Part shown: positions 1,943 through 41,305 of the stretch, piece after piece
Numbering within the stretch: the first letter of the stretch is position 1
How the letters are laid out: every line of letters starts with the position of its first letter
Source of the DNA: a virus
IMG/VR virus record: IMGVR_UViG_3300033149_002948
Location: 1-41,803 of that record
Length of the DNA: 41,803 nt
Reading direction: 5' to 3' (one strand)
Made by a program: the position numbers and the translations under genes
Notes under the pieces: model-generated
The model's database searches: none
What the model was told of the DNA's origin: nothing
What the model saw: only the letters and a program-made list of their open reading frames with translations

Positions 1943-2583
1943 TGGGTCATAGCATTGTTGAGCAGGCACGGCAGTTGTGCGAACAGGTTAACACTCTGCC
2001 AGAGGAAGAGAAGATTGCCGTCCTGAATAAGATACGGCTAATGTTGCACGACATCAGCCCGTTCCGCGATGAGCCTGTAGATTGTGTACTCTGGGTTTCA
2101 GCAGATACGGTATCGGGCAATGACTACAATCCCAACGTCGTCGCCCCGCCGGAGATGAAGCTGCTCAAACGCAGTATCTTGGAAGACGGCTATACCCAAC
2201 CCATCGTCACTTGGATGACTGGGGAGGATGGTCGTCGAGAGGTGGTTGACGGTTTCCACCGCAACCGCGTGGGCAAAGAAGACAAGACCATCCGCAAGCG
2301 GCTAGGGGGCTATCTGCCCGTCACTACTGTAAATGAGTGGCGAACAGATCGCGGCGACCGGATCGCCGCGACTATTCGCCACAACCGCGCGCGGGGAAAG
2401 CACGTGGTTGAGGGGCTGAGTGAGATTGTGATCGAACTCAAGCGCCGTAAATGGTCGGATAAACGCATTGCCCGCGAACTGGGGATGGACCCCGATGAGG
2501 TTCTGCGTCTATCCCAGATTAGTGGACTAGCCGAATTGTTTGCCGACCAGGAGTTCTCGGAGGCATGGGAAATTGATCTCTAA
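1918..2583 (+). CDS. ibrB-like: ParB/sulfiredoxin-fold protein, IbrB-like
   Basis: A 221-aa ParB-N/sulfiredoxin-like protein. Visible family signatures are DGYTQPIV (residues 90-97), VVDGFHR (109-115) and RHNRARGKH (154-162), followed by a helical HTH-like tail. These match the IbrB group, which is nearly always paired with an IbrA/DUF3440 gene, as here. Partition ParB proteins are larger and have different boxes, so this is not the plasmid partition protein. The start at 1918 is favoured by GGAGG at 1908-1912; an alternative ATG at 1942 forms a TAATG overlap with the upstream stop. It is the last gene of the operon and is followed by a strong terminator. The fold can bind or hydrolyse nucleotides or cut DNA, but the activity here is not known. 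Confidence 0.85.
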   Translation: MGDFPIGLMGHSIVEQARQLCEQVNTLPEEEKIAVLNKIRLMLHDISPFRDEPVDCVLWVSADTVSGNDYNPNVVAPPEMKLLKRSILEDGYTQPIVTWMTGEDGRREVVDGFHRNRVGKEDKTIRKRLGGYLPVTTVNEWRTDRGDRIAATIRHNRARGKHVVEGLSEIVIELKRRKWSDKRIARELGMDPDEVLRLSQISGLAELFADQEFSEAWEIDL

Positions 2584-2620
2584 AAGTCGGCCAACTCGTC
2601 CGAGCCAATGGCCAGGCCAC

Positions 2621-2664
2621 AAAGAAAAAGCCCCTGAGCTTTCGAGCTCAGGGGCTTTTTCTTT
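2621..2664. terminator. Perfect bidirectional intrinsic terminator
   Basis: Two 20-base arms (2621-2640 and 2645-2664) are exact reverse complements around a TTCG tetraloop. The base of the stem is A-rich on one side and T-rich on the other, so it terminates both strands. It sits between the plus-strand ibrAB-like operon and the converging late operon. Confidence 0.95.
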
Positions 2665-2668
2665 TTCG

Positions 2669-2719
2669 GCGGGGCAGGGACAATCACCCTGGGGGGATGG
2701 GGTGAAAGCCCTGCCCCGC
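2669..2719. repeat. Inverted repeat downstream of late operon
   Basis: Arms GCGGGGCAGGG (2669-2679) and CCCTGCCCCGC (2709-2719) are complementary with a 29-base loop. It lies just beyond the last late gene on the minus strand and before the main terminator, and may stabilise or help end the late transcript. Confidence 0.5.
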
Positions 2720-2747
2720 ACGCGGGGGGAGGGGGTGGGCAACCTGC

Positions 2748-3041
2748 TTATTGAGGCGGGCCGGCGGGCAGGATGCGGCCGGCCAGGTCACGGGCCACGT
2801 CCACCATCCCGCTGGCCGTCACGCCCAACCCTAGCCCATAGACCGCCACGGCCAGCCAACCGGCGAGGTCGGCGGGCGTAGCGATGCTGAGCTGGTAGGC
2901 CACGCCGAAGGCAAGGCCCAGGCAAGCGGCGGTCAGGCGCAGAGCCTTGCCACCTACTCCCATCTCCTTGACGAATTGTGTTAATGCCGTGATTAGCAGC
3001 ACTAACGGAATACCCGATACAACCGCGTCTGAGAAATCCAT
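2748..3041 (-). CDS. Holin-like membrane protein
   Basis: A 97-aa very hydrophobic protein with about three predicted membrane helices (roughly residues 9-27, 33-55 and 58-80), a short acidic N-terminus and a charged tail. Size, topology and position at the end of the late operon fit a phage holin, which would permeabilise the inner membrane at lysis. It follows the coiled-coil membrane protein by 4 bases. There is no diagnostic holin motif, so a superinfection-exclusion or other small membrane protein is possible. Confidence 0.55.
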   Translation of the reverse strand: MDFSDAVVSGIPLVLLITALTQFVKEMGVGGKALRLTAACLGLAFGVAYQLSIATPADLAGWLAVAVYGLGLGVTASGMVDVARDLAGRILPAGPPQ

Positions 3042-3045
3042 GATC

Positions 3046-3414
3046 TTAATCTCCTTTCATTGTGACTTCTGCTTTCCACTCGGCAAGCTCCCGCTTGAGG
3101 CAATCGATCTTCTCTAACAGTTGCCTGCGCTCTTTCTCCCATTCCCGCTCCCGTTCCGCTCTGCGCTCAGCTTCGGCATCCAAGCGCCTCACCAAATCCT
3201 CAATCGCCATCGACTTGGCTTTGTCCCGCCGGCGCAGATCGGCGTTATCGCGTTCCAGCTCGTCGACCCGCGCCGACAAACGCTTAATCTCCTCCCCGCG
3301 CCGGTCTATTACGGCCTCCAGTTCAATTAGAGCTTGTTTGCGCAATGTCGCCACTGCGCCAATGATACCAACGATGAAACCGGTCACGCCGGTAACGACT
3401 GCGACGCTGTCCAT
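3046..3414 (-). CDS. Membrane-anchored coiled-coil protein, spanin-like
   Basis: 122 aa: one N-terminal membrane helix (about residues 4-24) followed by a continuous highly charged coiled coil (about 28-115) full of Arg, Glu and Leu. This layout is that of i-spanin/Rz-type or similar lysis accessory proteins, and the gene lies next to the holin-like gene. The start ATG overlaps the upstream stop as TAATG. No partner lipoprotein (Rz1) with a lipobox was seen inside it. Role inferred from topology and position only. Confidence 0.5.
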   Translation of the reverse strand: MDSVAVVTGVTGFIVGIIGAVATLRKQALIELEAVIDRRGEEIKRLSARVDELERDNADLRRRDKAKSMAIEDLVRRLDAEAERRAEREREWEKERRQLLEKIDCLKRELAEWKAEVTMKGD

Positions 3415-4040
3415 TATGCCTCCACGATTTGCCAGCTCCCATCCGACAACAGTGCAAACACATCACCGTCCGAGGGGGCTTTCAGCCAGACGACACCATC
3501 CTGCTCGACCAGCCCGCCGTCGCCGTGCACTTCCTCCATGAGCACTTCTCCGAAGTCTTGGTGTCCGGCCAGCCAGTCTATTCCCGAACCTGGCGGGGAT
3601 TCATCCGGCACGGCCTCCCAACGCAAATCGTGCACCCAGAGCACGTACAGCGTGCCGCGATCCCAGAACACAACCGCTCTCTCAAAATCTGCCTCCGCCA
3701 TACGGCGGGTGTGCGGGGCGAAGTCGGGTGGAGCAGGCAGGATCGGTGGCGACGGTTCTGCTGGCGGGGGCGGCTGTTCATCGCCTGGCGTGGCGTGGAT
3801 CACCACGAAGACGTTCATCCCGTCCTGTCGCCACCGCCGCGTGAATCGGACGCCCTGGCCGGTACGCTTTTGGAGCACGCGGTCAACGGCGTCCAGGAAC
3901 TCCTCCAGCTCCTGCTCCGTGTCGGGTGACGCCATTGTGCCGACGCACTCGCCACCACGGGCAAACATCACCTCACCGGCCCGCACCTCGCCCAGGACCG
4001 GGTCGTCGCAGATTATCCTCTCCAGTTCCGATGCGTCCAT
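3414..4040 (-). CDS. Hypothetical protein with Pro-rich linker
   Basis: 208 aa in two parts: an acidic N-terminal half, a Pro-rich linker (about residues 85-108), and a C-terminal half rich in Trp, Asp and Gly. There is no signal peptide or membrane helix and no lytic enzyme motif that I can see. It sits between the PEP-CTERM gene, which it overlaps by 28 bases, and the lysis-type membrane genes, and is co-transcribed with them. A tail-fibre accessory or lysis-related role is possible; I cannot decide. Confidence 0.7.
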   Translation of the reverse strand: MDASELERIICDDPVLGEVRAGEVMFARGGECVGTMASPDTEQELEEFLDAVDRVLQKRTGQGVRFTRRWRQDGMNVFVVIHATPGDEQPPPPAEPSPPILPAPPDFAPHTRRMAEADFERAVVFWDRGTLYVLWVHDLRWEAVPDESPPGSGIDWLAGHQDFGEVLMEEVHGDGGLVEQDGVVWLKAPSDGDVFALLSDGSWQIVEA

Positions 4041-4294
4041 AATACGACACCTCCCAATCCCGCAATCACCAACAATAACGTTGCCGGTTCTGGTACTTCC
4101 CCCGGTAGGCCCTCCATTTCTGCCCGCGCTGGCGCCTCATTTACTCCAGATACAGACTGCAAATCTGGCGTCGGTCGCCACGGTGGGGGCAGCGGCGAGA
4201 CGGGCGAGTCAAAAGCCAACGCCTGGTGTGCGCTGAGGGCCAGAGCCAGGGTGATGATAATTGCGACGAGCAACAGAATTACAAGTTGTTTCAT
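4013..4294 (-). CDS. Small secreted protein with PEP-CTERM sorting signal
   Basis: 93 aa with a Lys-led N-terminal signal peptide (about residues 1-27), a Pro-rich linker, and a C-terminal tripartite sorting signal: VPEPAT (67-72), a hydrophobic stretch (about 72-86) and a basic tail with THRNWR (87-92). This is the PEP-CTERM signature recognised by exosortase in bacteria that make extracellular matrix. No exosortase gene is in the window, so processing would depend on the host. The start has AGAGGAA upstream. Such a signal on a phage late gene is unusual; the protein has almost no body between the two signals, so a membrane or envelope-active role is more likely than an enzyme. Confidence 0.75.
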   Translation of the reverse strand: MKQLVILLLVAIIITLALALSAHQALAFDSPVSPLPPPWRPTPDLQSVSGVNEAPARAEMEGLPGEVPEPATLLLVIAGLGGVVLWTHRNWRG

Positions 4295-4306
4295 CGTTTC
4301 CTCTTT

Positions 4307-4753
4307 CTATACTCGATAGCGCACGAAAGCGCGGGTCTGCGCGTTCGTGATGTTTGCGCTTGTCCAGAACGTGAGTACATCGCCCTGCGCGAAATCCGCG
4401 TTCACAGCGGTGTTTACATAGTTAGTCGCCCCTACCAGGGCCACATTCCAAATACTGATGCCATTGGCGTAGATGTGCAAATTGCCGGTATAGGCATTGC
4501 ATGACAGAGTGACGGCCACAACTGTGCCGTTGAACGGCGCAACGTGACCGATGGTGGCCGATGTAACCACCGTGCCCGTCATTAGCATATAGCCCGCCGC
4601 CGGCGCGGATCGCCCCGCCCCAAACCAATCCATGCCCAGTGTCAGTGATTTGTCGCCGCGCGTGCGGTCGAGGCCGTACTGCATCGGGTTCTCGTCGCGG
4701 CGGAAAAAGAAGCTGGTCAGCGTTCGTTTCAAATCGGCAGAGATTTGCGCCAC
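4307..4753 (-). CDS. Putative tail or receptor-binding protein
   Basis: 148 aa, GTG start at 4753 with GGAGG upstream. The N-terminal third is basic and helical (RRDENPMQYGLDR); the rest is Ala/Thr/Val-rich and predicted beta sandwich, as in phage tail-fibre tips and head fibres. It follows the tail-tip genes directly, three bases after the previous stop. No enzymatic motif is seen. Receptor binding is inferred from the position and the beta-rich composition. Confidence 0.55.
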   Translation of the reverse strand: MAQISADLKRTLTSFFFRRDENPMQYGLDRTRGDKSLTLGMDWFGAGRSAPAAGYMLMTGTVVTSATIGHVAPFNGTVVAVTLSCNAYTGNLHIYANGISIWNVALVGATNYVNTAVNADFAQGDVLTFWTSANITNAQTRAFVRYRV

Positions 4754-4756
4754 GGG

Positions 4757-5911
4757 CTATCCCTCCATTCTCGCCAACAGCAACGATAACGGCGCATCGC
4801 TACCCTCCGGCGTTCCTCTCAGCTCGCCGGTCTGCGCATTGTATTCCGTTTCCGTGAGCACGAAGCCGCGCAACTGGTCAAGCGGTGTAGACAGGCTGGC
4901 CGCGTCGGGCACCAGGTCACGGATGAGCACCATCATTCCGGCCTGGATTGCCAAGATAGAACGTGCCGCACCACCCGCGTCTTGGCAGAGCGTGTCGGCC
5001 AGGGAGACGATGAAGTCCGGCGTCTCCGGTCGTTGCCACACTCGCAAGCGGGGCAGCGTCCACACCGGCCCGCGCCGTGTCCCCGTCTCTACACCCACGT
5101 ACCAGATGTTTTGTGAGTTATCACCCAGGGAGACGATGTGTTGGATGTAGTCTTGTACTGGCCCGGCGTTATCCTCGTACTGCGTGATGTTCAAGTTCGT
5201 GCCCCCGATTAGCGACACATCGTTTGGGTCAAGGAATTCAACGTAGCTCGTCCCGTAAGCTGGGGCGATGGTGGTGTCTACAATATCCTCCAAAATCGCC
5301 TGTACCGTCGCCGTCGTGGTTACAAGCCGCTGGTAGAGCCGGTAGCGCAGCGTAGCCCAGTAGCCCAGCGCTGAAACGGACAACCTCATCCCCGCCTGGT
5401 TGACAGGGATACCAATGGTTGCGCCGACTACTGGCGTGGCGTGTACGCTGGCGAACGTGTCCCGCACGTTCATAGCCATTGCCGCCGTCAGGCCGCCTGG
5501 GGATAAGACGTGCTCTTTGATGCCATAGATGGTTTGGCTGTCCACATCGTTGGCCCAGGCGGTCAGCGAATAGCGGTTGTTTGCCAACAGGTCAGAGTAT
5601 TCGACGGCCACACGGTTGTGAACATCGCCCAGGGAGCGAGTGAGGCCCGTGCCACCGAAGCTCAACCTCACATTCCACAGCAGCCCATCCCACACGCACT
5701 CCTCGCCCTCCTCATTGGCCCAAACGATAAGGCGGCAGCCCAGTCGCTCCTCGAACCAATGAAACATCTCCACGATGTCCTCGCCGACTTCCGCGCTCCA
5801 CTGGCGGTAGAGGCCAGGAACGGCGGTAGAGAAGCGGTCGTTGTGGAGGAGGGGGGTCAGGTCGGCGAGTTTGTCAGTTCCGGGCAGGCGATCATAGAGT
5901 ATGGTTTGCAT
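4757..5911 (-). CDS. Tail tip / baseplate hub-like protein
   Basis: 384 aa, no signal peptide. The N-terminus (ILYDRL, LTPLLHN) and the central domain with several Trp and 'ITQYEDN' type segments resemble siphophage tail-tip proteins of the Gp37-like group that follow the distal tail protein. It lies four bases after the 777-aa tail protein and is followed by a small beta-rich protein. A structural role in the tail tip is likely from gene order; the exact family assignment is tentative. Confidence 0.55.
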   Translation of the reverse strand: MQTILYDRLPGTDKLADLTPLLHNDRFSTAVPGLYRQWSAEVGEDIVEMFHWFEERLGCRLIVWANEEGEECVWDGLLWNVRLSFGGTGLTRSLGDVHNRVAVEYSDLLANNRYSLTAWANDVDSQTIYGIKEHVLSPGGLTAAMAMNVRDTFASVHATPVVGATIGIPVNQAGMRLSVSALGYWATLRYRLYQRLVTTTATVQAILEDIVDTTIAPAYGTSYVEFLDPNDVSLIGGTNLNITQYEDNAGPVQDYIQHIVSLGDNSQNIWYVGVETGTRRGPVWTLPRLRVWQRPETPDFIVSLADTLCQDAGGAARSILAIQAGMMVLIRDLVPDAASLSTPLDQLRGFVLTETEYNAQTGELRGTPEGSDAPLSLLLARMEG

Positions 5912-5914
5912 GAT

Positions 5915-8248
5915 TCACAGCCACCGTGGAGTGTATTCACATTCGACGCGGGCGACGTGATCAACGTCGTGGAGTGGGGCGTAATCGCCGCCGCCGAGAT
6001 CGTGAAGTGTAGCCCAGGCCCATACCAGGCGATTGCATCTCTCGGGCCGCACACGAATGCCCTGGCCTAGAAACGGCATATTGAAACTCATATCATCGGT
6101 CAGGTTCAGTCGCTTGACGTAAAGATTGCGACCAGTACAAAGAACCAATTGCTCTACATCGGCCACCGCCGCGAGAACCCTAGTTTCAGGCCCACCAACG
6201 ATAAACAGGCCCTCGCGAGCGGGAATGAATATCAGGGTGTCAAATTCATAAGTGAGCGCGGCATTGCCAGATATATCCCACCACGTCCGCCAACGCCAAC
6301 TTACACCGTCTGGAATTAATCCAATAGGAAAGCTTACCCGTCCAGCCCCCGACAAAAACTCCCACAAATTTACGGCGGGGTGTAAGGGTAAATTAATCGT
6401 AGGGCTTGTGGCTTCGCCATCCCACCACAAATGAAGTGTTAATGACGGTAGAAAAACGTTGGTCTGCCGGGCCGTAGCAATAGGTATCCACGTACCGCAC
6501 ATTCCGCGCGGCACGTTATACCAGAAGAAGGCAGGCAATACTGGCACAAACGGGGACTGAATTAATCCTTCGGAACGCTCATTGTTACGCGCCATGCCTC
6601 CCCAGGCCATTTCAATATCGCCCCATGCTTCTTCGGGATAACCTTGTGACGTTAGACCAACGTGGATATTCGTCCAGCCTTGTAGCGCCACTCTGGTGGC
6701 GTCTATATGCACCTCGAATGAGAGCTTCGTATCTGCCGGTACATCCCCTGGCACATCCTCCACATCAAACAGGTTGCTGTGACTGCCATAACCGGTCACG
6801 CCTGCCGTGTGTTCTGTTATCCCATCATCGTAATGGTTGTAGACGCCCCACCATGAGCACCAGCCAATGGGATAGCTTTCGCCAGCGAGCAGGTTGGCGG
6901 CCTCAGTGAGATAGACTTTATCCACATCGTAATAAACGGCCACCGCCGCGCGATCAGGGCCGGTCACATAGATGTAAACCCGAATTGCAGTACAGCCGGC
7001 CGGCGTAGTGAACGTGAATCCATTGCGCTCCCATTCGCCAGCAGGCCCTGTCCAGGTCGCCGTATCTGCGATCCAGGCTGCGCCGGTCACGTCCCACACC
7101 TGCATAGTCACCGTCTGCCCGAGTATCCCTGCCGGCACGCGCACCTGGGCATGGACGTGGTAATCTGTGTTCGCCGTGACCGCGATGTCGTCGGTGTAGA
7201 TTCCGCCTGCAACTCCGGTATGCCCACCCCGCAGCCACACCTCTTGATAGCGAATTCCCTGGGGTGAGGCCACGGGGTAGGTTGGAGAAGCATCGGAGTA
7301 GTAGATAGCCGGTTCTGTCCAACTGCCCGCTATCACATTCCAGTTATCGCCCAGGCTCATTGTCGGGCCAGCGCCGCCCAGGGCAGCGTCGGCAATATTG
7401 TCAGTATAGGCCACTGTCGTGTTATCAGGAATTGTGATGAGATGATACCACGGCCCGGCCACGGCGGCCCCAGCCACACAGCGATAGATTTTCCGTGCAA
7501 TCGTTCCCGCTGGTCCAATGGGGATAGCCGCCAAATCGACCTGTTGATTGACTGGGGCAACGACGTTAGAAACGGTGCCCAGGATCGTTTGCCGCCCGTA
7601 CTGGTCAACGAAAGTCGTTTTGTAGGAATATTGGCCGTTGAGTATGCCCGCTCCGCCCAGGCCAGCATTACAAGCCCCCGGCGGCGTGTCGGGGTTCGGG
7701 CCGTACTCGAAGCTCGGATTGCGCACATGGTTACAGAGGTGCTCTGTGCGGCCATAGCGGAACGGCTCGCGGGTCATGGTCAGTTCGGCCTCGATGAATC
7801 CCTGCATGGCCGGAGATTCTGACCATGCGCCAGTTATCTCTAACCGCCCGTCCATGATGCGAGATTTGAGCAAAAAGCCCTTCTCATCGCTCCATAGTTC
7901 CAGGCAGGGGTTGGCCTGCTGTAAGTTGGCAGGCAATTCAGCCCAAGCGCGGCCCAACTCCAGCGCAGCGTCAATCCGTGAACGGACTTCCTCAATTGAC
8001 TCATCCGCCGTCTTACCGTGGTAGTACCAGCATGGCCGGCAGGTGGCCACGCCGTTGTTGTAGCGGCTGGCCGTCAGGTCTTGGCCGTCCCGGAACAGGT
8101 TGCCGCCAGCCCACTGCTGTCGCTTCGTGGCCGGGGGGATGCGCAAATTGAGGCGTGACTGATCAAACGGGAAGTCCATGAAATCGACCAACGTCGTCGC
8201 CGTGCCGTCGGGGTCCACCCGCACCAAGCGGGCCATACTCAAAGCCAT
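5915..8248 (-). CDS. Large distal tail protein with carbohydrate-binding-like domains
   Basis: 777 aa. The N-terminal about 180 residues look like a tail-tip attachment domain; then comes a fibronectin/Ig-like stretch (GQYSYKTTFVDQYGR), a jelly-roll region resembling a carbohydrate-binding module, and a second beta-sandwich-like half. It is encoded after the tape measure and a 99-aa accessory gene, the usual place of the distal tail/adsorption protein. It probably forms the adsorption device and binds host surface glycans; the glycan-binding part is inference from fold-like composition. Confidence 0.65.
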   Translation of the reverse strand: MALSMARLVRVDPDGTATTLVDFMDFPFDQSRLNLRIPPATKRQQWAGGNLFRDGQDLTASRYNNGVATCRPCWYYHGKTADESIEEVRSRIDAALELGRAWAELPANLQQANPCLELWSDEKGFLLKSRIMDGRLEITGAWSESPAMQGFIEAELTMTREPFRYGRTEHLCNHVRNPSFEYGPNPDTPPGACNAGLGGAGILNGQYSYKTTFVDQYGRQTILGTVSNVVAPVNQQVDLAAIPIGPAGTIARKIYRCVAGAAVAGPWYHLITIPDNTTVAYTDNIADAALGGAGPTMSLGDNWNVIAGSWTEPAIYYSDASPTYPVASPQGIRYQEVWLRGGHTGVAGGIYTDDIAVTANTDYHVHAQVRVPAGILGQTVTMQVWDVTGAAWIADTATWTGPAGEWERNGFTFTTPAGCTAIRVYIYVTGPDRAAVAVYYDVDKVYLTEAANLLAGESYPIGWCSWWGVYNHYDDGITEHTAGVTGYGSHSNLFDVEDVPGDVPADTKLSFEVHIDATRVALQGWTNIHVGLTSQGYPEEAWGDIEMAWGGMARNNERSEGLIQSPFVPVLPAFFWYNVPRGMCGTWIPIATARQTNVFLPSLTLHLWWDGEATSPTINLPLHPAVNLWEFLSGAGRVSFPIGLIPDGVSWRWRTWWDISGNAALTYEFDTLIFIPAREGLFIVGGPETRVLAAVADVEQLVLCTGRNLYVKRLNLTDDMSFNMPFLGQGIRVRPERCNRLVWAWATLHDLGGGDYAPLHDVDHVARVECEYTPRWL

Positions 8249-28566: not shown

Positions 28567-28662
28567 ACTGACTGACCGAAACCTCACACACGCTGCCAAA
28601 ATGCCCATTTTCACGGCTTTTCAGGTGTGTGTGCGGACCTTTCAGTCAGTCAGTCAGCGCGA
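28567..28662. repeat. Imperfect inverted repeat with GACT short tandem repeats
   Basis: The left arm contains CTGACTGACTGAC and CACACAC, and the right arm GTGTGTGTG and CAGTCAGTCAGTCAG. The end of the translocase gene (stop 28646-28648) lies inside the right arm. The centre AAAAT-gccc-ATTTT forms another small hairpin. Between converging genes, it could act as terminator for the minus strand or as a replication/recombination feature. Confidence 0.65.
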
Positions 28663-29944
28663 GCTCCAATCGCCACGAGCGAGCATCCAGCCAACCCAGG
28701 GCCTCACGGCCCAGTCCCAGCAGCCGCCGGGCACGGTCGCTGCCCGGACGGGGCAGGTCGCTCGCCTCGATCATGTCTTTCAGCCACGGCCGTCCGCGAT
28801 TCAGGCAGGCAGCCGCCAGCGCGGCCCCGACCTCGGCCGGCTCGGGCCAGGGAGAAGGTCGGCCTCCCACGTCCTGGCCCAAGTCTTCTGCCTCGAACTC
28901 CGGCCATTCCTCGAGTGCCGAATCAGTGCGTTCGGCCTGGTCAAAGTCGTGACTATCCACATAGGCTAGTTGTGCACGATGCAGCCCTGCCGGTGCGATA
29001 GCGTAGGCGTCGCCTGCGCCCAGGAGATGGTCGGCCCGTGGCCGGTTACTCCCCACGACCACCTTGCTGGCCTCATAGTCCATTACTTTTAGCGCCAGCC
29101 GTCCCACCAGGTTGCGCCTAATCGCTGGATCGCCGAAACTGGACAGGGCGGGGTGTTGGGTCGCCAGCAGGCAATGGACGTGCGCCGCCCGCCCCTGGGC
29201 CACCAGCCGCCGCAGACCCTCAACGACCACCTGGTCGCCGGTCAATTCCTGGAATTCGTCAACGACAACGATAACCCGCCCAGGCGCACCACCTTGATAG
29301 CGCCGCTTCATCTCGCTGAGAGTCCACCCCAGCGCAGCGCGCACGTCCACTACATCCGTTGCCAGCGGGCCGACTACGCCAGGCAAGCGGACCAGCATCC
29401 CCAGACCCTCACCCCACTTCCCGTCGATCAGCACCAGGCGGTTATCTGGATCGCGTGATAGTTGCAGCACTGCCGACCGGAGAGCCACACTCTTGCCGCT
29501 CCCCGTTGCACCCGCTAAAAGAAAGTGAGGTGTTTTGTCGTTCAGCCCCAGCGTCACCGTCTGGCCCAACTCGTTCTTGCCGGCGATCCAGCGCCCCCCA
29601 TCTCGCGGGTGCGCGCCCAGGTCGGTAAGGCGGATCATCGTCTCAGCCAGGTCGGAAGGCCAGCCAGCCTCAACGCGCACATAGCGCCCGGCCATGTAGA
29701 CGGCCGGTTCGCCGGTGAAGGCGAAGGGAATGAACTGGCGCGCCAGTGCGCAATCGTCGGCGGATAGAGCGCGTAGCAACCGCCCAGCCTCCATGCCAGC
29801 ATGGAGTTCAACGGCGCCCGCCCTCGGCCCGGCCACCGTCTCCGCACGCCGAATTTGCATTGGCTTACCTTTAAGCGCTCCCTGCTGCGCCGCGTTGATC
29901 AGTCGCCGCGCCCAATCGTTTAGAACCTCGCGCTTCCCACTCAT
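28646..29944 (-). CDS. FtsK/SpoIIIE-like DNA translocase
   Basis: 432 aa from ATG 29944, which overlaps the upstream stop as ATGA. Walker A GATGSGKS is at residues 145-152, Walker B VVVDEFQE at 227-234, and the sensor LLATQHP follows. It lacks the long membrane N-terminus of FtsK and the gamma domain was not recognised, so it resembles plasmid/ICE-type cytoplasmic translocases. It could move plasmid-like genome copies at division or transfer. In the same transcript direction as the ParM/ParR genes. Confidence 0.85.
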   Translation of the reverse strand: MSGKREVLNDWARRLINAAQQGALKGKPMQIRRAETVAGPRAGAVELHAGMEAGRLLRALSADDCALARQFIPFAFTGEPAVYMAGRYVRVEAGWPSDLAETMIRLTDLGAHPRDGGRWIAGKNELGQTVTLGLNDKTPHFLLAGATGSGKSVALRSAVLQLSRDPDNRLVLIDGKWGEGLGMLVRLPGVVGPLATDVVDVRAALGWTLSEMKRRYQGGAPGRVIVVVDEFQELTGDQVVVEGLRRLVAQGRAAHVHCLLATQHPALSSFGDPAIRRNLVGRLALKVMDYEASKVVVGSNRPRADHLLGAGDAYAIAPAGLHRAQLAYVDSHDFDQAERTDSALEEWPEFEAEDLGQDVGGRPSPWPEPAEVGAALAAACLNRGRPWLKDMIEASDLPRPGSDRARRLLGLGREALGWLDARSWRLELALTD

Positions 29945-30213
29945 AGCGCATCCCCCCTTATCAGTTCCACAATCACAATCACCGCCACTCCCACCGGAAT
30001 CGCCACGGTCAATATTGGCCCCCAGCGATTCCAGAACTTGCGATGGCGTAGCCACCGCTGCCAGGGGTCGGGGTCACGGTAAAACATCTCTTTAAACCAC
30101 ACGGGCCTATCCTGCGCTGCAATTTGCGCGATGGATGGGCCTGTGGTAAAATCCTCGAAGCCTGGACGGTGGCCCACTCCACCGCCTGGGTTAGGGGTCG
30201 TCGGTAGTATCAA
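29941..30213 (-). CDS. Small single-pass membrane protein
   Basis: Up to 90 aa, TTG start at 30213 doubtful. The C-terminus has one membrane helix (ILTVAIPVGVAVIVIVELI) after an aromatic helical stretch 'PDPWQRWLRHRKFWNRWG'. Translational coupling to the translocase by ATGA suggests it anchors that ATPase to the membrane, a role that its missing N-terminus would require. This is inference from context. Confidence 0.6.
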   Translation of the reverse strand: MILPTTPNPGGGVGHRPGFEDFTTGPSIAQIAAQDRPVWFKEMFYRDPDPWQRWLRHRKFWNRWGPILTVAIPVGVAVIVIVELIRGDAL

Positions 30214-31470: not shown

Positions 31471-32439
31471 TCAGCCCGTCACCCGTTGCGCAAACTTCCA
31501 GTATCCCAGCGCGTTTGCAAAAACCGGCTCGGATACCACCCGCGCGTGCCGGAAGTGCGCCTCGATATATGGCCCTAACAGATGCGCTCCACCGCCGCTT
31601 ACCAGGATCGCGTCCAGGCCCGCGCCGCCGTTCCAGAGTTGCGTCGCCTCTGCCACAACCTGGTCGGCCATGGGCTGTAACGCAGCGTCTACCACATCGC
31701 CCAGGTCAACCGGCTCGCCGTAATAGCGTACACGGCGGGCTATGATAGCGTCTACAACCTGGTGGTCTCTAAGCTCCAGGTTCGGGCAGTTGTCGGCCAG
31801 CCAGCGCCTGACGGCCCGCACCGCGTCCCACGCGCCCACGTTCACGCTGGAGGTCTCACGGCCAATCTCGGCCATGCGATTGACAGATAGCAGATTCGTG
31901 GTCTTGCCCCCGCAGTCTATCACGCCCACCGCGCCGGTCGCCAAGCCGTTGTCAACGATGCGTCCTTGAACGTCTAGCGCCTCGGACAGCAGACAGCCAA
32001 AGGGCTGTGGGATCACCCTCACATCCGTAACCCTGAGCACTTGCGCCCGCCGTCCTTCCCGTTGCACCCGATGCTCACCCAGCAAACGATCACGTACCAC
32101 GCCCTTGTCAGAGTAGAAAGCCACGGGCAGGCCGGTCACTATCTGGAGATCACACCGCGTCGCACTCGTTAGCTCGGAAAGGGCGGCCAGGGCCAGCGTG
32201 TACCACTCCAGGCTTTCGATCCACCGCCTATCCTCACGGCGGTTCACAAAACGGCTCTGGCGCACCGCCTCAGCACCTACCAGAACGTGCTCGGGCTCTA
32301 CCAGCACTAGGGCCGCCGCCTGGGCACCCACCGTAAACCGCGCCTTGTCGGGCGTGCCTACCACGCTGGGGAAGTTCATTCGCCGTCCGCCGGATACCGC
32401 TTTTGTTGCACTATAGCCAATGTCGAGTCCAATTTTCAT
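31471..32439 (-). CDS. parM-like: ParM/StbA-like actin ATPase
   Basis: 322 aa with actin-superfamily motifs: phosphate 1 DIGYSATK (6-13), phosphate 2 VIDCGGKTTN (173-182) and adenosine VSGGGAHLLGP (280-290). Length and domain order match plasmid ParM/StbA-like proteins and are shorter than host MreB. It would polymerise with ATP and push plasmid copies apart. SD is GGAGGGGG. Together with the RHH gene downstream it makes a type II partition system. Confidence 0.88.
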   Translation of the reverse strand: MKIGLDIGYSATKAVSGGRRMNFPSVVGTPDKARFTVGAQAAALVLVEPEHVLVGAEAVRQSRFVNRREDRRWIESLEWYTLALAALSELTSATRCDLQIVTGLPVAFYSDKGVVRDRLLGEHRVQREGRRAQVLRVTDVRVIPQPFGCLLSEALDVQGRIVDNGLATGAVGVIDCGGKTTNLLSVNRMAEIGRETSSVNVGAWDAVRAVRRWLADNCPNLELRDHQVVDAIIARRVRYYGEPVDLGDVVDAALQPMADQVVAEATQLWNGGAGLDAILVSGGGAHLLGPYIEAHFRHARVVSEPVFANALGYWKFAQRVTG

Positions 32440-32486
32440 TGCCTAATCCCCCTCCGTTAACGCACAAGCTGTAAGAAAAAAAGAGA

Positions 32487-32687
32487 TCATTGCGTGTATT
32501 TCTGGTCACCCAGCTCACGCATCCGCCGTACATAGCCCGCCAGGCTCTCAGCGTCCACCAGCCAAACACGGGCCCCAATCCGCCGCGCCGCCACCTTGCC
32601 GGTGCGGGCCAGCCAGCGGATGTGGCCGGCCGAGTAGCCGGTAACTGATGCGGCCTCGTTCGGGGTTAGCTCAATCCTTTGTGGCAT
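32487..32687 (-). CDS. Excisionase/MerR-like small HTH protein
   Basis: 66 aa from ATG 32687 with GGAGGGG; longer frames to 32843 run through a neighbouring gene. 'LTPNEAASVTGYSAGHIRWLARTGKVAARRIGARVWLVDAESL' is the winged-HTH of excisionase-family proteins (HTH_17). It may direct excision with the tyrosine integrase or regulate the replication genes. It lies upstream of parM-like. Confidence 0.75.
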   Translation of the reverse strand: MPQRIELTPNEAASVTGYSAGHIRWLARTGKVAARRIGARVWLVDAESLAGYVRRMRELGDQKYTQ

Positions 32688-32716
32688 TTTCCCCTCCAGT
32701 CTTTGCGCAAAGATTT

Positions 32717-32965
32717 TTAATCCCTCGGCAACCCCGCCGCCTTGCGCACCGCCTCCAGTGCCCACGCCTCGTGCTTCGGGCAGTAGGCCGTATCCGTGGC
32801 GGCGATCACGCCCACAATCCCGCCCTGCTTGCAGAGGACGCAACAGTGGCAGGTCTGGCAGATTGGGTTATCGGGGTCATACTCAAAAGCGCCATCTTCC
32901 TGCCGGGCAATCGCACGGGCCACGGCTGCCATGCCGTCTCCCGCGAAAACAAGGCTTTCAATCAT
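32717..32965 (-). CDS. Cys-rich protein, possible zinc binding
   Basis: 82 aa from ATG 32965 (AGGAGG SD). A Cys/His cluster CQTCHCCVLC and CPKH suggests two zinc-binding sites. It overlaps a 54-aa coiled-coil gene by 8 bases. Function unknown. Confidence 0.65.
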   Translation of the reverse strand: MIESLVFAGDGMAAVARAIARQEDGAFEYDPDNPICQTCHCCVLCKQGGIVGVIAATDTAYCPKHEAWALEAVRKAAGLPRD

Positions 32966-35180: not shown

Positions 35181-35345
35181 TTGTCCCTACAGCTTGTCGT
35201 GTTTACCCAGGAAGGATATTCAATTGTGTTGCCCCGACTGCTGGTCTTCCCCACGTCTTGCCAGCTTGCATAGCGCCCTGCTTTTATCGCCCGATTGTCT
35301 GGGACGAACCGCTCTCCTATTGCTATGCGCCCTTCGGCCGCCTTG

Positions 35346-35418
35346 TGGACGCGGCAGGGTTTGAACCTGCGTCACAGCCGTGCAAGGACTGTATTTTCCC
35401 CACTTAAACTACGCGCCC
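35346..35418 (-). tRNA. tRNA-Ala(TGC)
   Basis: 73-nt cloverleaf on the minus strand: acceptor GGGCGCG/CGCGTCC with the G3-U70 pair that marks alanine tRNAs, a 4-bp D stem, anticodon arm CAGTC-CTTGCAC-GGCTG giving TGC, and T arm GCAGG-TTCAAAC-CCTGC. CCA is not encoded. The flanks 35181-35345 and 35419-35546 hold short hairpins (for example GTAGGCA/TGCCTAC at 35461-35511) but no convincing gene. Confidence 0.93.
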
Positions 35419-35972: not shown

Positions 35973-35974
35973 CC

Positions 35975-36623: not shown

Positions 36624-36699
36624 GGCGTCCCCTATAAAATCCCGTGAAAGACCCTGCCCCATCCCCTACCAGACAAATCTCGAAAAGCATGGTATTCTA

Positions 36700-36897
36700 T
36701 TGTGGTTGTTAAATCCCCAGTCGCCTCCCCGCTTAGGTGGGGAATCCCCGCAAGCGGGGAGCGGCTGGGGTCCATCACAGTGAGTCCTCTCTGTGCAAAC
36801 CGCACAGAGGATGGATCACAGCCTTGACCTCTGGGGGGGGTGAGGCAATTTATGACAGGCGCTCGGCTTGCGCAACAGGTCGGGCGCTTTTCTTTTT
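36700..36897 (+). ncRNA. Candidate structured RNA with terminator upstream of integrase
   Basis: No ORF with support. A 19-bp stem with one bulge (36715-36734 with 36752-36770) encloses a second small hairpin; a further stem CTCTGTGC/GCACAGAG (36789-36796, 36802-36809) is closed by TCCATC/GATGGA (36771-36776, 36810-36815). It ends with stem 36859-36867/36879-36887 followed by TTTTCTTTTT (36888-36897). A weak promoter CAGACA-N17-TATTCT lies upstream. Either a stand-alone RNA or an attenuator leader for the integrase. Confidence 0.5.
36859..36897 (+). terminator. Intrinsic terminator before integrase
   Basis: Stem GCGCTCGGC/GTCGGGCGC (36859-36867, 36879-36887, two G-U pairs), loop of 11, then TTTTCTTTTT (36888-36897). 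Confidence 0.85.
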
Positions 36898-36953
36898 ATG
36901 GTACACTGATTGCACTTAACCGCTTTGCTATTTGACGAAAGGAAGGTGTAAAC

Positions 36954-37847
36954 ATGGAACTGCAAGACGCGCTTCGGCAATTCATCCTGGACAAGAGGGC
37001 GGCCAATCTCAGCCCCGATACCATTGGCTGGTATCGGCGGATGCTGTCCCGGCTACTCCGGTTCCTGGCCGAGCAGGGCGTCTCCGAGGTCTCGGAGGTG
37101 GCCATCACCCACCTCCGGGCCTTCGTTGTGAGCCTGCAAACGGCCGGCCTCGGCCCCCACAGCGTCCACACCTACGCGGGCGCCCTGCGCATCTTCTTCA
37201 ACTGGCTGGTAGCTGAGGAGGTGATCGGAAGTAGTCCTGCCGCGCGGCTCAAATCCCCTCACCTGCCGGATTGCCCGCCCAAAGCCATTACCCCGGACGA
37301 TCTGCGGCGGCTACTGGAGACTGCCAAGCCGGACGCCCGTGATTACGCCATTGTCTGCTTTCTGGCGGACACGGCGTGCCGCGTCGGTGGCCTGGTGCGC
37401 CTGCGCCTCACCGACCTGGACTTGGGGAACGGTCGTGCCCTGGTGCGTGAAAAGGGGCACGGTGGCGGGAAAGTCCGCACCGTGTATTTCAACGGCCGCA
37501 CCCGCGCTGCGCTAACGAGGTGGCTGAAAGTGCGACCGGGGAGCGACGACGACGCCGTCTTTCTCAGCAAGAAGAGCGGTAGGGCTTTGACTACCAGGGG
37601 TGTGTGGCAGGCACTCAAGCGCCTGGCGAAACGGGCCGGGGTTAAGGGCCGTTTCAATCCTCACGCCTTCCGCCACGGGTGGGCGCGGGAGGCGCTGAGG
37701 AACGGGGCAAGCCTGGCCGATGTATCACAGGTGCTCGGCCATAGCAGCATCGCGGTCACGGCCCGCTTTTACACCCGCTGGGCTGATCGGGAGTTACAGA
37801 AACGCCACGGCCAGTTCTCGCCGTTGGCGGATCCCGATAGCGATTGA
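36954..37847 (+). CDS. int: Tyrosine recombinase / integrase
   Basis: 297 aa, SD GGAAGG. N-terminal SAM-like core-binding domain (about 1-100), then the catalytic domain with R143 (ACRVGGL), K167, H237-x-x-R240 (HAFR), H263 (LGHSS) and Y273 (ARFYTRW). XerC/D-like size. It would integrate the phage or resolve dimers of the plasmid form. No attP core could be identified. It lies next to the XRE repressor, in a lysogeny module. Confidence 0.92.
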   Translation: MELQDALRQFILDKRAANLSPDTIGWYRRMLSRLLRFLAEQGVSEVSEVAITHLRAFVVSLQTAGLGPHSVHTYAGALRIFFNWLVAEEVIGSSPAARLKSPHLPDCPPKAITPDDLRRLLETAKPDARDYAIVCFLADTACRVGGLVRLRLTDLDLGNGRALVREKGHGGGKVRTVYFNGRTRAALTRWLKVRPGSDDDAVFLSKKSGRALTTRGVWQALKRLAKRAGVKGRFNPHAFRHGWAREALRNGASLADVSQVLGHSSIAVTARFYTRWADRELQKRHGQFSPLADPDSD

Positions 37848-37931
37848 GAACATGGCTTTCACCCACGTAATCATGCCCATGCACATCCGCACCGATTGAC
37901 CTATAGGTTGGAAATGTGCTCTACTAAATAA

Positions 37932-37971
37932 GGTGGGTCTCCGCTTCTCACCGAGAAGCGGTGTCCATAGC
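37932..37971 (+). other. Hairpin downstream of integrase
   Basis: CCGCTTCTC-ACC-GAGAAGCGG gives a 9-bp stem within this stretch, which then runs into CTCTTTTCCC. Possible first terminator of the integrase transcript. Confidence 0.5.
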
Positions 37972-38025
37972 TCTTTTCCCGCTCATCACTTGGCAGGTGG
38001 GGGAGCGGGGGAGGGGCAGAAGGAA

Positions 38026-38064
38026 CAAGCGCCTAGTCCCTGTACACACAGGGCTGGGCGCTTG
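38026..38064. terminator. Bidirectional terminator between int and repressor genes
   Basis: Long stem (CAAGCGCC and CCCTGT against ACAGGG and GGCGCTTG, loop ACAC) followed by GTATTTTCT on the plus strand; it separates the converging integrase and repressor genes. Confidence 0.8.
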
Positions 38065-38071
38065 GTATTTT

Positions 38072-38308
38072 CTAGTTAGGTCGGTGGGGCCGCTCGTAGG
38101 TAGGATCGTATTTGAAAAGCTCTTCCACGCCTACCTCAAGCGTTTTGCACAGCTTGTCGAGCGTCTCGAAGGCGATACTCCCTGTCCGGTCATGATAGAT
38201 CTCGTAGACAGTGGGATAAGAAAGACCCGAACGCCTTGCAAGCTCTGCAATACTCATTCGCTCGCGCCCCATAACCTCGGAGACACGGTTCACAATCCCC
38301 AATGGCAT
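38072..38308 (-). CDS. XRE-family repressor
   Basis: 78 aa, SD GGAGGGG. HTH pattern 'MSIAELARRSGLSYPTVYEIYHDRTGSIAFETLDKLCKTLEV' is the Cro/cI-type XRE fold, with a short C-terminal tail and no protease domain. Its promoter faces the promoter of the early plus-strand operon, so it likely is the lysogeny switch regulator. It might also be Cro-like. Start chosen for SD. Confidence 0.85.
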   Translation of the reverse strand: MPLGIVNRVSEVMGRERMSIAELARRSGLSYPTVYEIYHDRTGSIAFETLDKLCKTLEVGVEELFKYDPTYERPHRPN

Positions 38309-38360
38309 GGCCCCTCCTTTCTTTGGATTATGTGATTAGTGCCCTTTTCCTGCGCCTTTT

Positions 38361-38389
38361 ATTATACACTATCTGTACCTGCTTGTCAA
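38361..38389 (-). promoter_or_regulatory. Repressor promoter
   Basis: Minus strand TTGACA (complement 38384-38389), 17-bp spacer, TATAAT (complement 38361-38366). Consensus-grade. The 6-mer ATCTGT occurs here and in the opposite promoter's spacer; possible operator half-site. Confidence 0.9.
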
Positions 38390-38420
38390 TAGCTACAACC
38401 TTAAAATTTTCATCTAGGCC

Positions 38421-38449
38421 TTGACAAACTCATTGATCTGTGGTATCAT
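38421..38449 (+). promoter_or_regulatory. Early promoter
   Basis: TTGACA (38421-38426), 17 bp, TATCAT (38444-38449). It drives the early plus-strand genes and is opposed to the repressor promoter, with 31 bp between -35 boxes. Confidence 0.88.
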
Positions 38450-38505
38450 TAAGGTGTGGGATAGAGAGTATAGCCCGTAGCATGAAAACGAAAGGAGCAC
38501 CCCCA

Positions 38506-38763
38506 ATGACCGACAAAAGCAAAAACATCGTCCGCATCGCCACTACCCCCAGTCACGATTCCGAGCGCCTGGTTGTCCGCGAGCACAGCGACGGGCACGC
38601 CCTGGTCACATTCTGGACGCCGATAGTCGTGGACTTCGCCAGCTTCGATGCCGCGCTGGAGTGGGCGCGAGACCACATTGAGGCGCGGGGCTATCCCGAC
38701 ATGGAGATAACCGTCCGCGAACACGAATACATTTCATATTGCGCACGTGCGGATGGCAGGTGA
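38506..38763 (+). CDS. Hypothetical early protein, 85 aa
   Basis: 85 aa from ATG 38506 with AGGAG nine bases upstream. 'VRIATTPSHDSERLVVREHSDG', then a helix 'FDAALEWARDHIEAR' and 'YPDMEITVREH'. Small alpha/beta protein, first of the early operon. Function unknown. Confidence 0.7.
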   Translation: MTDKSKNIVRIATTPSHDSERLVVREHSDGHALVTFWTPIVVDFASFDAALEWARDHIEARGYPDMEITVREHEYISYCARADGR

Positions 38764-38814
38764 GCAATCATGGCACACGCTAAGGCAATGCTCGAGACAA
38801 GGAGCTAGTTAGCT

Positions 38815-39159
38815 ATGACCCCCATCACCCTACCCACAGCGCAAGGACACATCACCATCCGCTCAGGCCGCAAGGTCGAGCTCCCCAGCGGTCGCACCAT
38901 GACCCTCAAGCGCTTTCGATCCAGCGTCTATTTCGTGGTGCGCTGGCCCGACAGCCCTGGCGCTCAGCAGGCCCTGGCCGAACTCGGCCTTGCCCTGGCC
39001 GATGTACAGGCCCTGGCCAGCGCCACCGATGAGGACGTGGTGCTCCGTCAGGTGTTGGCCCCAGCGCGTGAGCGGGTACGCTGTGCCCGCTGCGGGCGGG
39101 TGCTGTGGGATGCAAAGAGCATCCGGTTGGGGATGGGGCCGGAGTGCCGGAAGAAGTAG
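38815..39159 (+). CDS. DUF6011-type zinc-ribbon protein
   Basis: 114 aa. C-terminus 'CARCGRVLWDAKSIRLGMGPEC' is the DUF6011 pattern (CxxC ... GxGPxC), a zinc-binding tail frequent in phages and mobile elements. The N-terminal beta region (HITIRSGRKVELPSGRTM) is a small domain. SD AAGGAG lies about 11 bases before the ATG. Role unknown. Confidence 0.8.
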   Translation: MTPITLPTAQGHITIRSGRKVELPSGRTMTLKRFRSSVYFVVRWPDSPGAQQALAELGLALADVQALASATDEDVVLRQVLAPARERVRCARCGRVLWDAKSIRLGMGPECRKK

Positions 39160-39178
39160 GGGCGAAAGGACTATCACG

Positions 39179-39430
39179 ATGGATCGAAAGAATATCTCAC
39201 GCTGTCGCCGGTCGGTGTACCACGAACCCACCGATGCGCGGGTCACACTGTGCAACGGCGCACCGGAGGAGGCTGTGTGTTGCGGCGGCTCCTGGCAACC
39301 GTGGCGGATCAAGGCGCTGGGGCGGGACTACCCCGCGCCGGCCGGTTGGCGGTGGCAGGGGGCGGGCAGCATCGCCTACCTGGTACGGGACGCTACTTTT
39401 AGGAGGGAGCGATGTTCAACTCAACGCTAG
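39179..39430 (+). CDS. Hypothetical protein, 83 aa
   Basis: 83 aa from ATG 39179, AAAGGA nine bases upstream. Cys- and Trp-containing (CCGGSWQPWRIKALGRDYP), N-terminal basic (MDRKNISRCRRS). It overlaps the next gene by 19 bases. Function unknown. Confidence 0.65.
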   Translation: MDRKNISRCRRSVYHEPTDARVTLCNGAPEEAVCCGGSWQPWRIKALGRDYPAPAGWRWQGAGSIAYLVRDATFRRERCSTQR

Positions 39431-39696
39431 TCCGGGATTACGTCTGCGCTCGCCCCGGCTGCCACGCGCCCCTGATCGAGGTCTGGGATCAGGAAAGGCA
39501 ACGGCACGTGGTGGTCTGCTCGGCCAACCGCGAACATCGCGGGTTTTGGCTCAAGACCACGCTGGCCTATCGAGAGGCCAGCGAGCGGGCCGAATACAAT
39601 CTACTGGCCGAGGCGTTTCCGGTGCTGGCCAGGGCCGAACACCCTCCGCTCCAGGAGTCGGCCAGGAAGAGCATCGCTGATTTGTTTGGAGATTGA
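39412..39696 (+). CDS. Small zinc-binding-like protein, 94 aa
   Basis: 94 aa with SD GGAGG upstream of ATG 39412. 'VCARPGCHAPLIEVWDQERQRHVVVCSANREH' suggests a C-x4-C ... C-x6-H site. Then a helical C-terminus. Precedes the gp3-like gene. Role unknown. Confidence 0.7.
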   Translation: MFNSTLVRDYVCARPGCHAPLIEVWDQERQRHVVVCSANREHRGFWLKTTLAYREASERAEYNLLAEAFPVLARAEHPPLQESARKSIADLFGD

Positions 39697-39719
39697 CTAA
39701 TCGAGGAAAGGAGATTACA

Positions 39720-40898
39720 ATGCCTATCAAGGGACTTACCGACACCGGCACACGCCGGTTCAATGAGATTGGGGTCATCCGCAAGGGTGGGCCCAAAGGC
39801 GCGAATCGCCCCGGAAAAGACCTGTCCTACTTCCGTGTCGTTTTCTATGAGGGCGAAGAGGAGGCGGCTCGCCGTTTTCAGGAGGTCTATGGCGACCGGC
39901 CGCGAGAGATCAATGTGTGGTTGCCATTCGACACAGTGCCCGAAGTGTGGGACGCCTGGAACGAGGCGTACACCGCCGGGGCGTTGGTGCATCGCTGCAA
40001 CGGCGAGTGGGTAGACTATGCCCGCGATCCACAGACGGGCGAGGTACTGGTGCGTTTTGGGCGTGACCTCAAGACGGGGCTGCCCGTGCCCTGCACCGGC
40101 GAGCCCGTCTATTTCTACACCAACAAAAAAGGCGAGCAGGTAGGCGTGCACTGCGCACCGCGCGGCCGGCTGCGAGTGATCATCCCAGAGTTGCAGCGGA
40201 TAGCCTACCTGACCGTAAAGACGGGCAGCTACAACGATGTCCGCAACCTCTCCGAGCAACTGAACGGCTTTGAGGATCTAACCAATTATCATCTGCGCAG
40301 CGTACCGTTTCGGCTGTGCCGCCAGAAGAAGATGGTGCCCACCCCGGGACCCAACGGTAAGACCGTCCGCCGCCCCAAGTGGTTGCTGGCCCTGGAGGTA
40401 CACCCCGACTGGGCAGCGGCCAAAGTGCGCGCCTTCCAGGTGGCCGTGCCAGCGGCGCTACCGGCAACAACGGAAGCAGAGCCGGAGGGGAACGGCGAGC
40501 CGGACGGGTGGGATGAGGATGTTCACGCTGGCGATGAGGAGAACGGGGTTGTTGAGGCGAGCATCGTTGAGGAATCGCCACCCCCCGAAGTGCCCGAAGG
40601 GGAACTGGAGGCTTTCGTCCGTGAGCTTCGTGAGGCCCTGGCCGAACACCCGCGCAACGGCGACCCCGCCCCGGCGGGCACGCGCCGCAGCGTCAAGGTG
40701 GCCCTGGAGAGAGTCGTTGGTGAGGGCAACGCGCCCGCCCTCCTCCGCGCAGCCTACGGCTGTGAGTGGGAGGAACTCACCCTGGGGATGGCCGCCATTC
40801 TGGCCAACGCAGCGGCGGGCCGGAACGGGAAGTTCGCATGGAAGAAAATGCGCTGGAGAAAGTTGGCGCAGGCGCTGATCGCGCAGGAGGAGGGGTGA
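39720..40898 (+). CDS. phiC31 gp3-like protein (RDF / 'hydrolase or metal-binding' family)
   Basis: 392 aa from ATG 39720 (AAAGGAG). N-terminal 'FNEIGVIRKGGPK', 'DLSYFRVVF', 'EINVWLPFD' and 'WDAWNEAY' are the pattern of the gp3-like family, which in phiC31 controls integrase direction. C-terminal half: an acidic linker (about 254-300), then a helical domain. Its integrase partner here is a tyrosine enzyme, so the RDF role is uncertain; ssDNA binding or annealing is possible. Confidence 0.65.
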   Translation: MPIKGLTDTGTRRFNEIGVIRKGGPKGANRPGKDLSYFRVVFYEGEEEAARRFQEVYGDRPREINVWLPFDTVPEVWDAWNEAYTAGALVHRCNGEWVDYARDPQTGEVLVRFGRDLKTGLPVPCTGEPVYFYTNKKGEQVGVHCAPRGRLRVIIPELQRIAYLTVKTGSYNDVRNLSEQLNGFEDLTNYHLRSVPFRLCRQKKMVPTPGPNGKTVRRPKWLLALEVHPDWAAAKVRAFQVAVPAALPATTEAEPEGNGEPDGWDEDVHAGDEENGVVEASIVEESPPPEVPEGELEAFVRELREALAEHPRNGDPAPAGTRRSVKVALERVVGEGNAPALLRAAYGCEWEELTLGMAAILANAAAGRNGKFAWKKMRWRKLAQALIAQEEG

Positions 40899-40899
40899 T

Positions 40900-41247
40900 A
40901 TGCCTACTCAAACCTGGATTTGCCCTCGCTGTGGTCAGGAGAACACCGACAATTGGCCGCTGAAAATGAGGGACGGCCAGATCGCAGACGGTGGCTGCCG
41001 GGACTGCTGGGAGAAGCAATGCGCTAAGACTTGGTGGGAGCACTGGGGGCCTCGCTTGGGGAATGTGACAATTGCGATGGATCGGGCGGCAAGCGCAATC
41101 GCCACCTTACCGCCCGACCAGTGGGCCGGCTGGGTGATCTATCTGTTGGAGACCCTGGACGACCGGGCTGGGGAAGACGAGTTTCGCGCCGTCCTGGAGG
41201 GACTGCGGGGTGACATCACCACGCGGCTAGAGGAGGGGAGGTGGTAA
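40900..41247 (+). CDS. Zinc-ribbon protein, 115 aa
   Basis: 115 aa, SD GGAGGAGGGG. N-terminal CPRCGQ ... CRDC gives a two-pair zinc ribbon, then 'WAGWVIYLLETLDDR' helices. Last gene before the ibrAB-operon promoter. Function unknown. Confidence 0.7.
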   Translation: MPTQTWICPRCGQENTDNWPLKMRDGQIADGGCRDCWEKQCAKTWWEHWGPRLGNVTIAMDRAASAIATLPPDQWAGWVIYLLETLDDRAGEDEFRAVLEGLRGDITTRLEEGRW

Positions 41248-41251
41248 GGGC

Positions 41252-41305
41252 TTGACAAACTTGACAAATATACGATTATCATATATAATATAGATAGTTG
41301 ATTCA
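41252..41305 (+). promoter_or_regulatory. Promoter with palindromic operator, copy 2
   Basis: TTGACA (41261-41266; a second at 41252-41257), 17 bp, TATAAT (41284-41289). A 9-1-9 palindrome (41268-41286) matches the 27723-27741 palindrome, with one base changed in one arm. It drives the ibrAB-like operon. Confidence 0.9.

Follow-up and report, generated by a model that had tools for sequence, protein, structure and literature searches.

An ibrA–ibrB operon spans the join of a circular phage genome

IMG/VR virus record IMGVR_UViG_3300033149_002948, analyzed here over its full 41,803 nucleotides (the window), carries an operon of four overlapping plus-strand genes: open reading frame (ORF) A, ORF B, ibrA, and ibrB. 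Bases 1–114 of the record repeat bases 41690–41803; the record is therefore circular, with a length of 41,689 bp, and its join falls inside the operon. ORF A begins at 41327 (an alternative start is possible near 41384), runs to 41689, and continues from 1 to 351, where the first 114 bases are those of the repeat. It is followed by ORF B (348–746, 132 aa), ibrA (728–1942, 404 aa), and ibrB (1918–2583, 221 aa). Adjacent genes share 4–25 nt: ORF A and ORF B overlap in an ATGA that holds the ORF B start conserved in relatives (the first ATG, at 333, would give 137 aa), and ibrA and ibrB overlap by 25 nt.

A sigma-70-type promoter with perfect consensus hexamers and spacing precedes the operon on the plus strand (41261–41289; TTGACA at 41261, a 17-bp spacer, and TATAAT at 41284), with a second TTGACA at 41252. 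Downstream of ibrB lies an intrinsic terminator (2621–2664) with a perfect 20-bp stem, a 4-nt loop, and T runs (−37.5 kcal/mol, z −6.2), in a position that also suits the convergent late genes. The tight operon across the join, the strong promoter, and the perfect terminator had been described in a first-pass annotation of the window, and all three are borne out. The same annotation placed the operon under a palindromic operator. The palindrome is present downstream of the promoter (TTGATTCAATCAA, 41298–41310), has 6-bp arms, and is not repeated exactly elsewhere in the window. When the 79-bp intergenic region is shuffled, however, 23% of the shuffles contain one of equal length. We therefore reject it as strong evidence for an operator and treat it as an unproven candidate.

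ORF A encodes 237 aa. Its N-terminus reads like a ribbon-helix-helix (RHH) protein, a putative assignment made by reading the sequence alone and lacking the backing of a family model in family-model searches. One weak homologue (34% identity) lies upstream of ORF B in contig L002; used as a search query, ORF A returned no matches. ORF B matches phrog_26647 (3e-9), and its homologues stand directly before ibrA in 11 other loci. ORF B homologues align too variably to yield a usable search profile, and no PDB chain matched the protein.

IbrA is predicted to be a PP-loop protein with a conserved ATP-binding loop

IbrA matches phrog_2302 (4e-87) and two Pfam families above their cut-offs, PAPS_reduct (6.9e-14; 52.7 bits, cut-off 22.5) and, after it, DUF3440 (9.9e-35; 120.4 bits, cut-off 25), a fusion found in all IbrA copies checked. 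The PP-loop ATP-pyrophosphatase domain covers residues ~1–230, with SGGKDS at residues 33–38. Across 63 diverse sequences (42–81% identity), SGGKDS, D62, and E64 are essentially invariant, as are P244, G246, W264, R270, G273, and R359 of DUF3440. None of the cysteines is invariant, the most conserved being C242 (61/63), C371 (51/63), C109 (48/63), and C361 (43/63).

The best PDB profile matches are CysD (5e-8) and FAD synthase (5e-7), followed by CysH, and the AlphaFold model (predicted local distance difference test, pLDDT, 88.4) matches CysH (top), FAD synthase, and CysD; the structure matches and PDB profile matches listed for IbrA include neither DndC nor SspD. CysD and FAD synthase are adenylyl-transferring enzymes. 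CysH is also the best NCBIfam match (5.8e-12), but at 46 bits against a cut-off of 254.2 (TIGR02057); the score also falls far under the CysD cut-off, and the DndC model is matched more weakly than CysH (TIGR03183, 1.8e-6; 27.1 bits, cut-off 290.4). The catalytic motif of CysH is a C-terminal ECG(I/L)H, which was not found in the IbrA sequence of the window.

On these profile and model matches, IbrA is best placed in the CysH/CysD/FAD-synthase branch of PP-loop proteins, extended by DUF3440. Since the CysH and DndC scores lie far below cut-off, the loop is SGGKDS, and no cysteine is invariant, neither a CysH nor a DndC function is likely. From the branch placement, the low scores, and the cysteine pattern, we infer that the chemistry of IbrA would be ATP-dependent adenylylation rather than 3′-phosphoadenosine-5′-phosphosulfate (PAPS) reduction or Fe-S sulfur transfer.

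IbrB is predicted to combine a ParB nucleotide fold with a helix-turn-helix

IbrB matches phrog_2159 (ParB-like, 1.5e-68); together with the IbrA matches, this upholds the earlier identification of the pair. Its AlphaFold model (pLDDT 88.6) matches KorB (closest), ParB, and Noc over ~165 columns that take in the nucleotide fold and the helices after it. In hhalign comparisons with the ParBs of IbrB-carrying genomes, 157 columns including the helix-turn-helix (HTH) align with probability 96.6. The ParB motif GERR aligns with an invariant DGxHR of IbrB, and ENxxR aligns with HNxARGxH, in which the asparagine and arginine are kept and the glutamate is lost. IbrB has no ParB C-terminal dimerization domain and scores 12.4 bits against the ParB model TIGR00180 (cut-off 58.45). 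Strong conservation of its HTH region extends from phylum to phylum. We predict a nucleotide-binding fold of the ParB/Srx type followed by an HTH. According to a survey of ParB proteins, this fold can bind CTP, ATP, or GTP, and both sequence and AlphaFold3 fail to predict which (Kaljevic 2025, PMC12704722).

IbrA and IbrB are near-obligate partners

Searches with the IbrA query alone yielded 110 loci (30 viral, 80 genomic) from viruses, bacteria, and one archaeon, and IbrB adjoins IbrA in 108 of them. One of the two loci lacking IbrB (L100) lies near a contig end, and the other (L105) is a real exception at the search sensitivity used. Reciprocally, all 79 new viral loci found with the IbrB query alone have IbrA nearby, with IbrB downstream in 36 and upstream in 43. 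IbrA and IbrB are near-obligate partners, and the conserved co-occurrence in other phages that the first-pass annotation called for is found.

IbrB proteins placed upstream are usually longer (~390 aa). A separate gene of 127–155 aa sits between ibrB and ibrA in three loci (L006, 5591–6001; L038, 747–1130; and L110). The L006 product had no family match; by sequence, the L006 and L038 products group with the long IbrBs, matching their C-terminal part, so this domain occurs both fused and free.

The pair is far from rare. IbrA is matched by 216 isolated-phage records and IbrB by 218, and the genera that contribute most do so in equal numbers for both proteins (Flavobacterium 90, Mycobacterium 55, Streptococcus 21, and Arthrobacter 12). 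The E. coli genes ybdN and ybdM are adjacent; with a Klebsiella copy of the pair as query, 5,374 of the 5,426 complete E. coli genomes give a match. The window copy, which had been singled out as unusual for a phage, thus joins a family that is already known and common, though functionally unsolved; the literature searched gave no biochemical function for IbrA/YbdN. What is new here is that the pairing is nearly complete in both directions, that individual residues argue against each of the sulfur readings, that the ParB motifs are altered, and that GNAT-like and SNF2 partners recur, as described below.

GNAT-like proteins and SNF2 helicases recur beside the pair

In 21 loci, drawn from Clostridia, Bacteroidota, Actinomycetota, proteobacterial lineages, and one phage, a GNAT-like protein is encoded between the two genes of the pair or next to them. 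An SNF2-type helicase (phrog_62) occurs in 24 loci (L019, L020, L022, L083, L094, L101, L109, and 17 others), in most of which its gene immediately precedes ibrA, and ten loci have both partners. The helicase partner, taken with the HTH of IbrB, points to a nucleic acid as the target. In some loci, a cysteine-rich protein (phrog_16123) or a 106-aa protein (phrog_5809) comes before the helicase. Four Clostridia loci (L098, L102, L106, and L108) carry degenerate GNAT-like proteins between ibrA and ibrB that lack the usual CoA-binding motif and share a conserved stretch, FYxxMGxFFGSR...DRIYDD.

The operon was gained by horizontal transfer as a moron

The GC content of the operon is 50.8%, against 59.6% in the rest of the phage, and falls in the lowest 1% of equal-sized windows. 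The nearest IbrA (81% identity) is in contig L002, which also has IbrB (64%) and ORF B (60%). The ORF B–ibrA–ibrB core recurs in 11 loci (L002–L005, L024, L032–L036, and Chlorobiaceae phage CV-1-33) from Bacillota, Lentisphaerota, and Mariprofundaceae assemblies and from viruses, and in their flanks only a generic integrase matches the window. Because it is AT-rich, has its own promoter and terminator, shares its core with unrelated phages and bacteria, and sits in a backbone without close relatives, the operon is a moron cassette obtained by horizontal transfer, as had been suggested. In a tree of 63 IbrA sequences, the viral label requires at least six changes, and IbrA has therefore been exchanged repeatedly between viruses and cells, although some of the cellular loci may be prophages.

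The rest of the genome is that of a tailed phage, with genes for a terminase, a portal, a head protease/major head protein, ParA-like and FtsK-like proteins, a tyrosine integrase (36954–37847), and a Gp3-like protein that resembles recombination directionality factors. Late genes occupy the minus strand from ~2.75 kb, so that the operon lies between them and the plus-strand integrase side. The ParA-like partition gene (31471–32439, minus strand, phrog_691) adjoins a gene for an HTH_17 protein (together 31471–32843, minus strand), and the phage may be maintained as a phage-plasmid despite its integrase. The FtsK/SpoIIIE-like protein (phrog_1358; 28646–30055, minus strand) is unusual for a 42-kb phage. 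A tRNA-Ala (tgc) gene or remnant (35345–35418, minus strand), ~1.5 kb from the integrase gene, may be either what is left of an attachment site or a tRNA of the phage itself. Judged by the proteins tried, the backbone is almost without relatives in IMG/VR: the portal has two distant ones (29–34% identity, in IMG/VR contigs), and the backbone proteins adjoining the operon had none in the viral_contigs search, so that looking for operon-free relatives with an empty site yielded none.

A DNA-directed, ATP-using enzyme is the preferred reading

Databases label the pair, which nearly all E. coli and hundreds of phages carry, as sulfur metabolism. It looks instead like an ATP-using enzyme guided to DNA. 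Our best reading, which the pairing, the predicted folds and conserved residues, the recurrent partners, and the moron features lead us to favor tentatively, is an obligate two-component, nucleoside triphosphate (NTP)-dependent, DNA-directed adenylylating or modifying system carried on a transferred moron. IbrB, with its ParB-like NTP-binding fold and HTH, would bind DNA in a nucleotide-dependent manner and recruit IbrA, which, with its intact SGGKDS loop, would cleave ATP to AMP and pyrophosphate and adenylylate its target, which is most likely either a group on a nucleic acid or a small molecule later placed on DNA. GNAT-like proteins and SNF2 helicases would join in many lineages, and the outcome in the cell would be altered transcription, as reported for E. 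coli ibrAB and prophage eib genes, marked DNA, or both. The phage would likely gain control of its own or a resident prophage's genes, or the means to mark DNA. A defense role is possible; PADLOC-DB 2.0.0 gave weak matches for IbrA (DndC, 7.4e-7, and BrxP) and none for the other operon genes.

A more inclusive version, in which IbrA–IbrB together with ORF B and the GNAT-like and SNF2 partners form an uncharacterized nucleic-acid modification system with PP-loop ATP activation and ParB-HTH targeting, we consider somewhat doubtful. If true, such a system would be spread over phages, mobile elements, and bacterial chromosomes, and would be near-core in E. coli. With pairing this close to perfect, ParB motifs that are altered, and GNAT and helicase partners, what was a vague moron becomes an enzyme hypothesis open to testing.

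Several observations weigh against a DNA-directed adenylylating system. Many of the GNAT-like partners have no clear acetyl-CoA motif and are possibly not enzymes, neither a helicase nor a GNAT-like gene adjoins the pair in the window, and the helicase neighbor might stem from shared mobile-element ancestry. C242 is near-invariant (61/63), so that thiol chemistry is still conceivable for IbrA. Activation of eib genes is, to our knowledge, the only phenotype reported for the IbrA/IbrB family, and it also fits pure regulation without DNA modification; it may result from a DNA mark or from direct regulation.

That phenotype, reported for E. coli ECOR-9, whose IbrAB island activates prophage eib genes (Sandt 2002, as cited in PMC7649339), also lends support to IbrAB as a transcription co-activator, with IbrA adenylylating or otherwise modifying a protein such as an RNA polymerase subunit or a repressor, IbrB picking promoters, and the phage tuning its own or prophage genes. 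IbrB retains a ParB-type HTH, and its closest structural match, KorB, is a transcriptional repressor. However, a simple regulator needs no intact ATP-pyrophosphatase domain, conservation of the HTH across phyla is unusual for promoter-specific factors, and the SNF2 and GNAT partners suit nucleic-acid chemistry at least equally. On balance we hold the co-activator explanation to be rather unlikely.

The two sulfur readings fare worse. In a DndC/SspD-like system, to which the first-pass annotation had related the pair, IbrA would move sulfur to DNA and IbrB would act as DndB. The PP-loop superfamily is indeed common to both, the weak DndC matches reach 1.8e-6 and 7.4e-7, and DndB was once classed with ParB (PMC10853773); but IbrA scores 27 bits against 290, below its CysH match, and no cysteine is invariant in the 63 sequences, whereas DndC relies on a cysteine-bound 4Fe-4S center and a cysteine dyad (PMC10853773). 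Nor were DndA, DndD, or DndE recognized, or a DndB/D/E or SspB/C operon found, among the recurring neighbors (IbrB, ORF B, GNAT-like protein, SNF2 helicase, and cysteine-rich protein), with some single neighbors unscanned. Such sulfur transfer is improbable, and a direct DndC/SspD link is rejected on scores, structure matches, and cysteines. An auxiliary sulfate-assimilation gene encoding a PAPS reductase proper, the function given in PHROGs and GenBank labels, is more improbable still. Although PAPS_reduct is matched above cut-off and CysH is both the best NCBIfam and the top structure match, 46 bits against 254, an ATP-type SGGKDS loop, the missing ECG(I/L)H motif, the fused DUF3440, and a near-obligate ParB-like partner all speak against it, and we reject it on score, loop, and motif; ordinary sulfate assimilation, a placement that would have counted against the earlier proposal, is thus disfavored. 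Finally, plasmid-type partition, with IbrB as the ParB of a phage-plasmid and ParA encoded elsewhere, is scarcely credible and was rejected: the window has a ParA-like protein and IbrB a ParB fold, but IbrB accompanies IbrA at nearly every locus, scores 12 bits against 58, lacks GERR and ENxxR, and lies at a distance from a ParA gene that is ~9 kb from the operon start around the circle and adjoins its own HTH gene.

Comparison with known systems

DndC and the type 4 BREX protein BrxP share the PP-loop superfamily with IbrA, which differs in lacking their conserved cysteine set, in scores far below cut-off, and in having no recognized Dnd or BREX partners beside it. CysH, CysD, and FAD synthase share the fold and the PP-loop region; here IbrA is set apart by DUF3440 and the ParB-like partner. 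On the IbrB side, the predicted nucleotide-binding fold is shared with the ParB, Noc, and KorB CTPases, SbnI, SerK, and sulfiredoxin, and the HTH only with ParB, Noc, and KorB, from which IbrB differs by DGxHR for GERR, HNxARGxH for ENxxR, the missing C-terminal dimer domain, and the lack of a ParA neighbor.

Closer counterparts are IbrA/IbrB of E. coli ECOR-9 and YbdN/YbdM, in which a PAPS_reduct + DUF3440 protein is likewise followed by an overlapping ParB-like gene; identity is ~45–52% for enterobacterial relatives. Unlike these, the window copy has ORF B and an RHH-like gene upstream, its own promoter and terminator, and a phage location, whereas ybdNM adjoins the LysR gene ybdO/citR, whose product represses it (PMC9068703). 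Among phages, Streptococcus Moineauvirus, Flavobacterium and mycobacterial phages, and Chlorobiaceae phage CV-1-33 carry the same two proteins in unrelated backbones. In Streptococcus phage CHPC1148, no ORF B is recognized and the upstream position is taken by a hypothetical gene of 412 aa, while CV-1-33 has the same ORF B–ibrA–ibrB order as the window, at 60%/57% identity.

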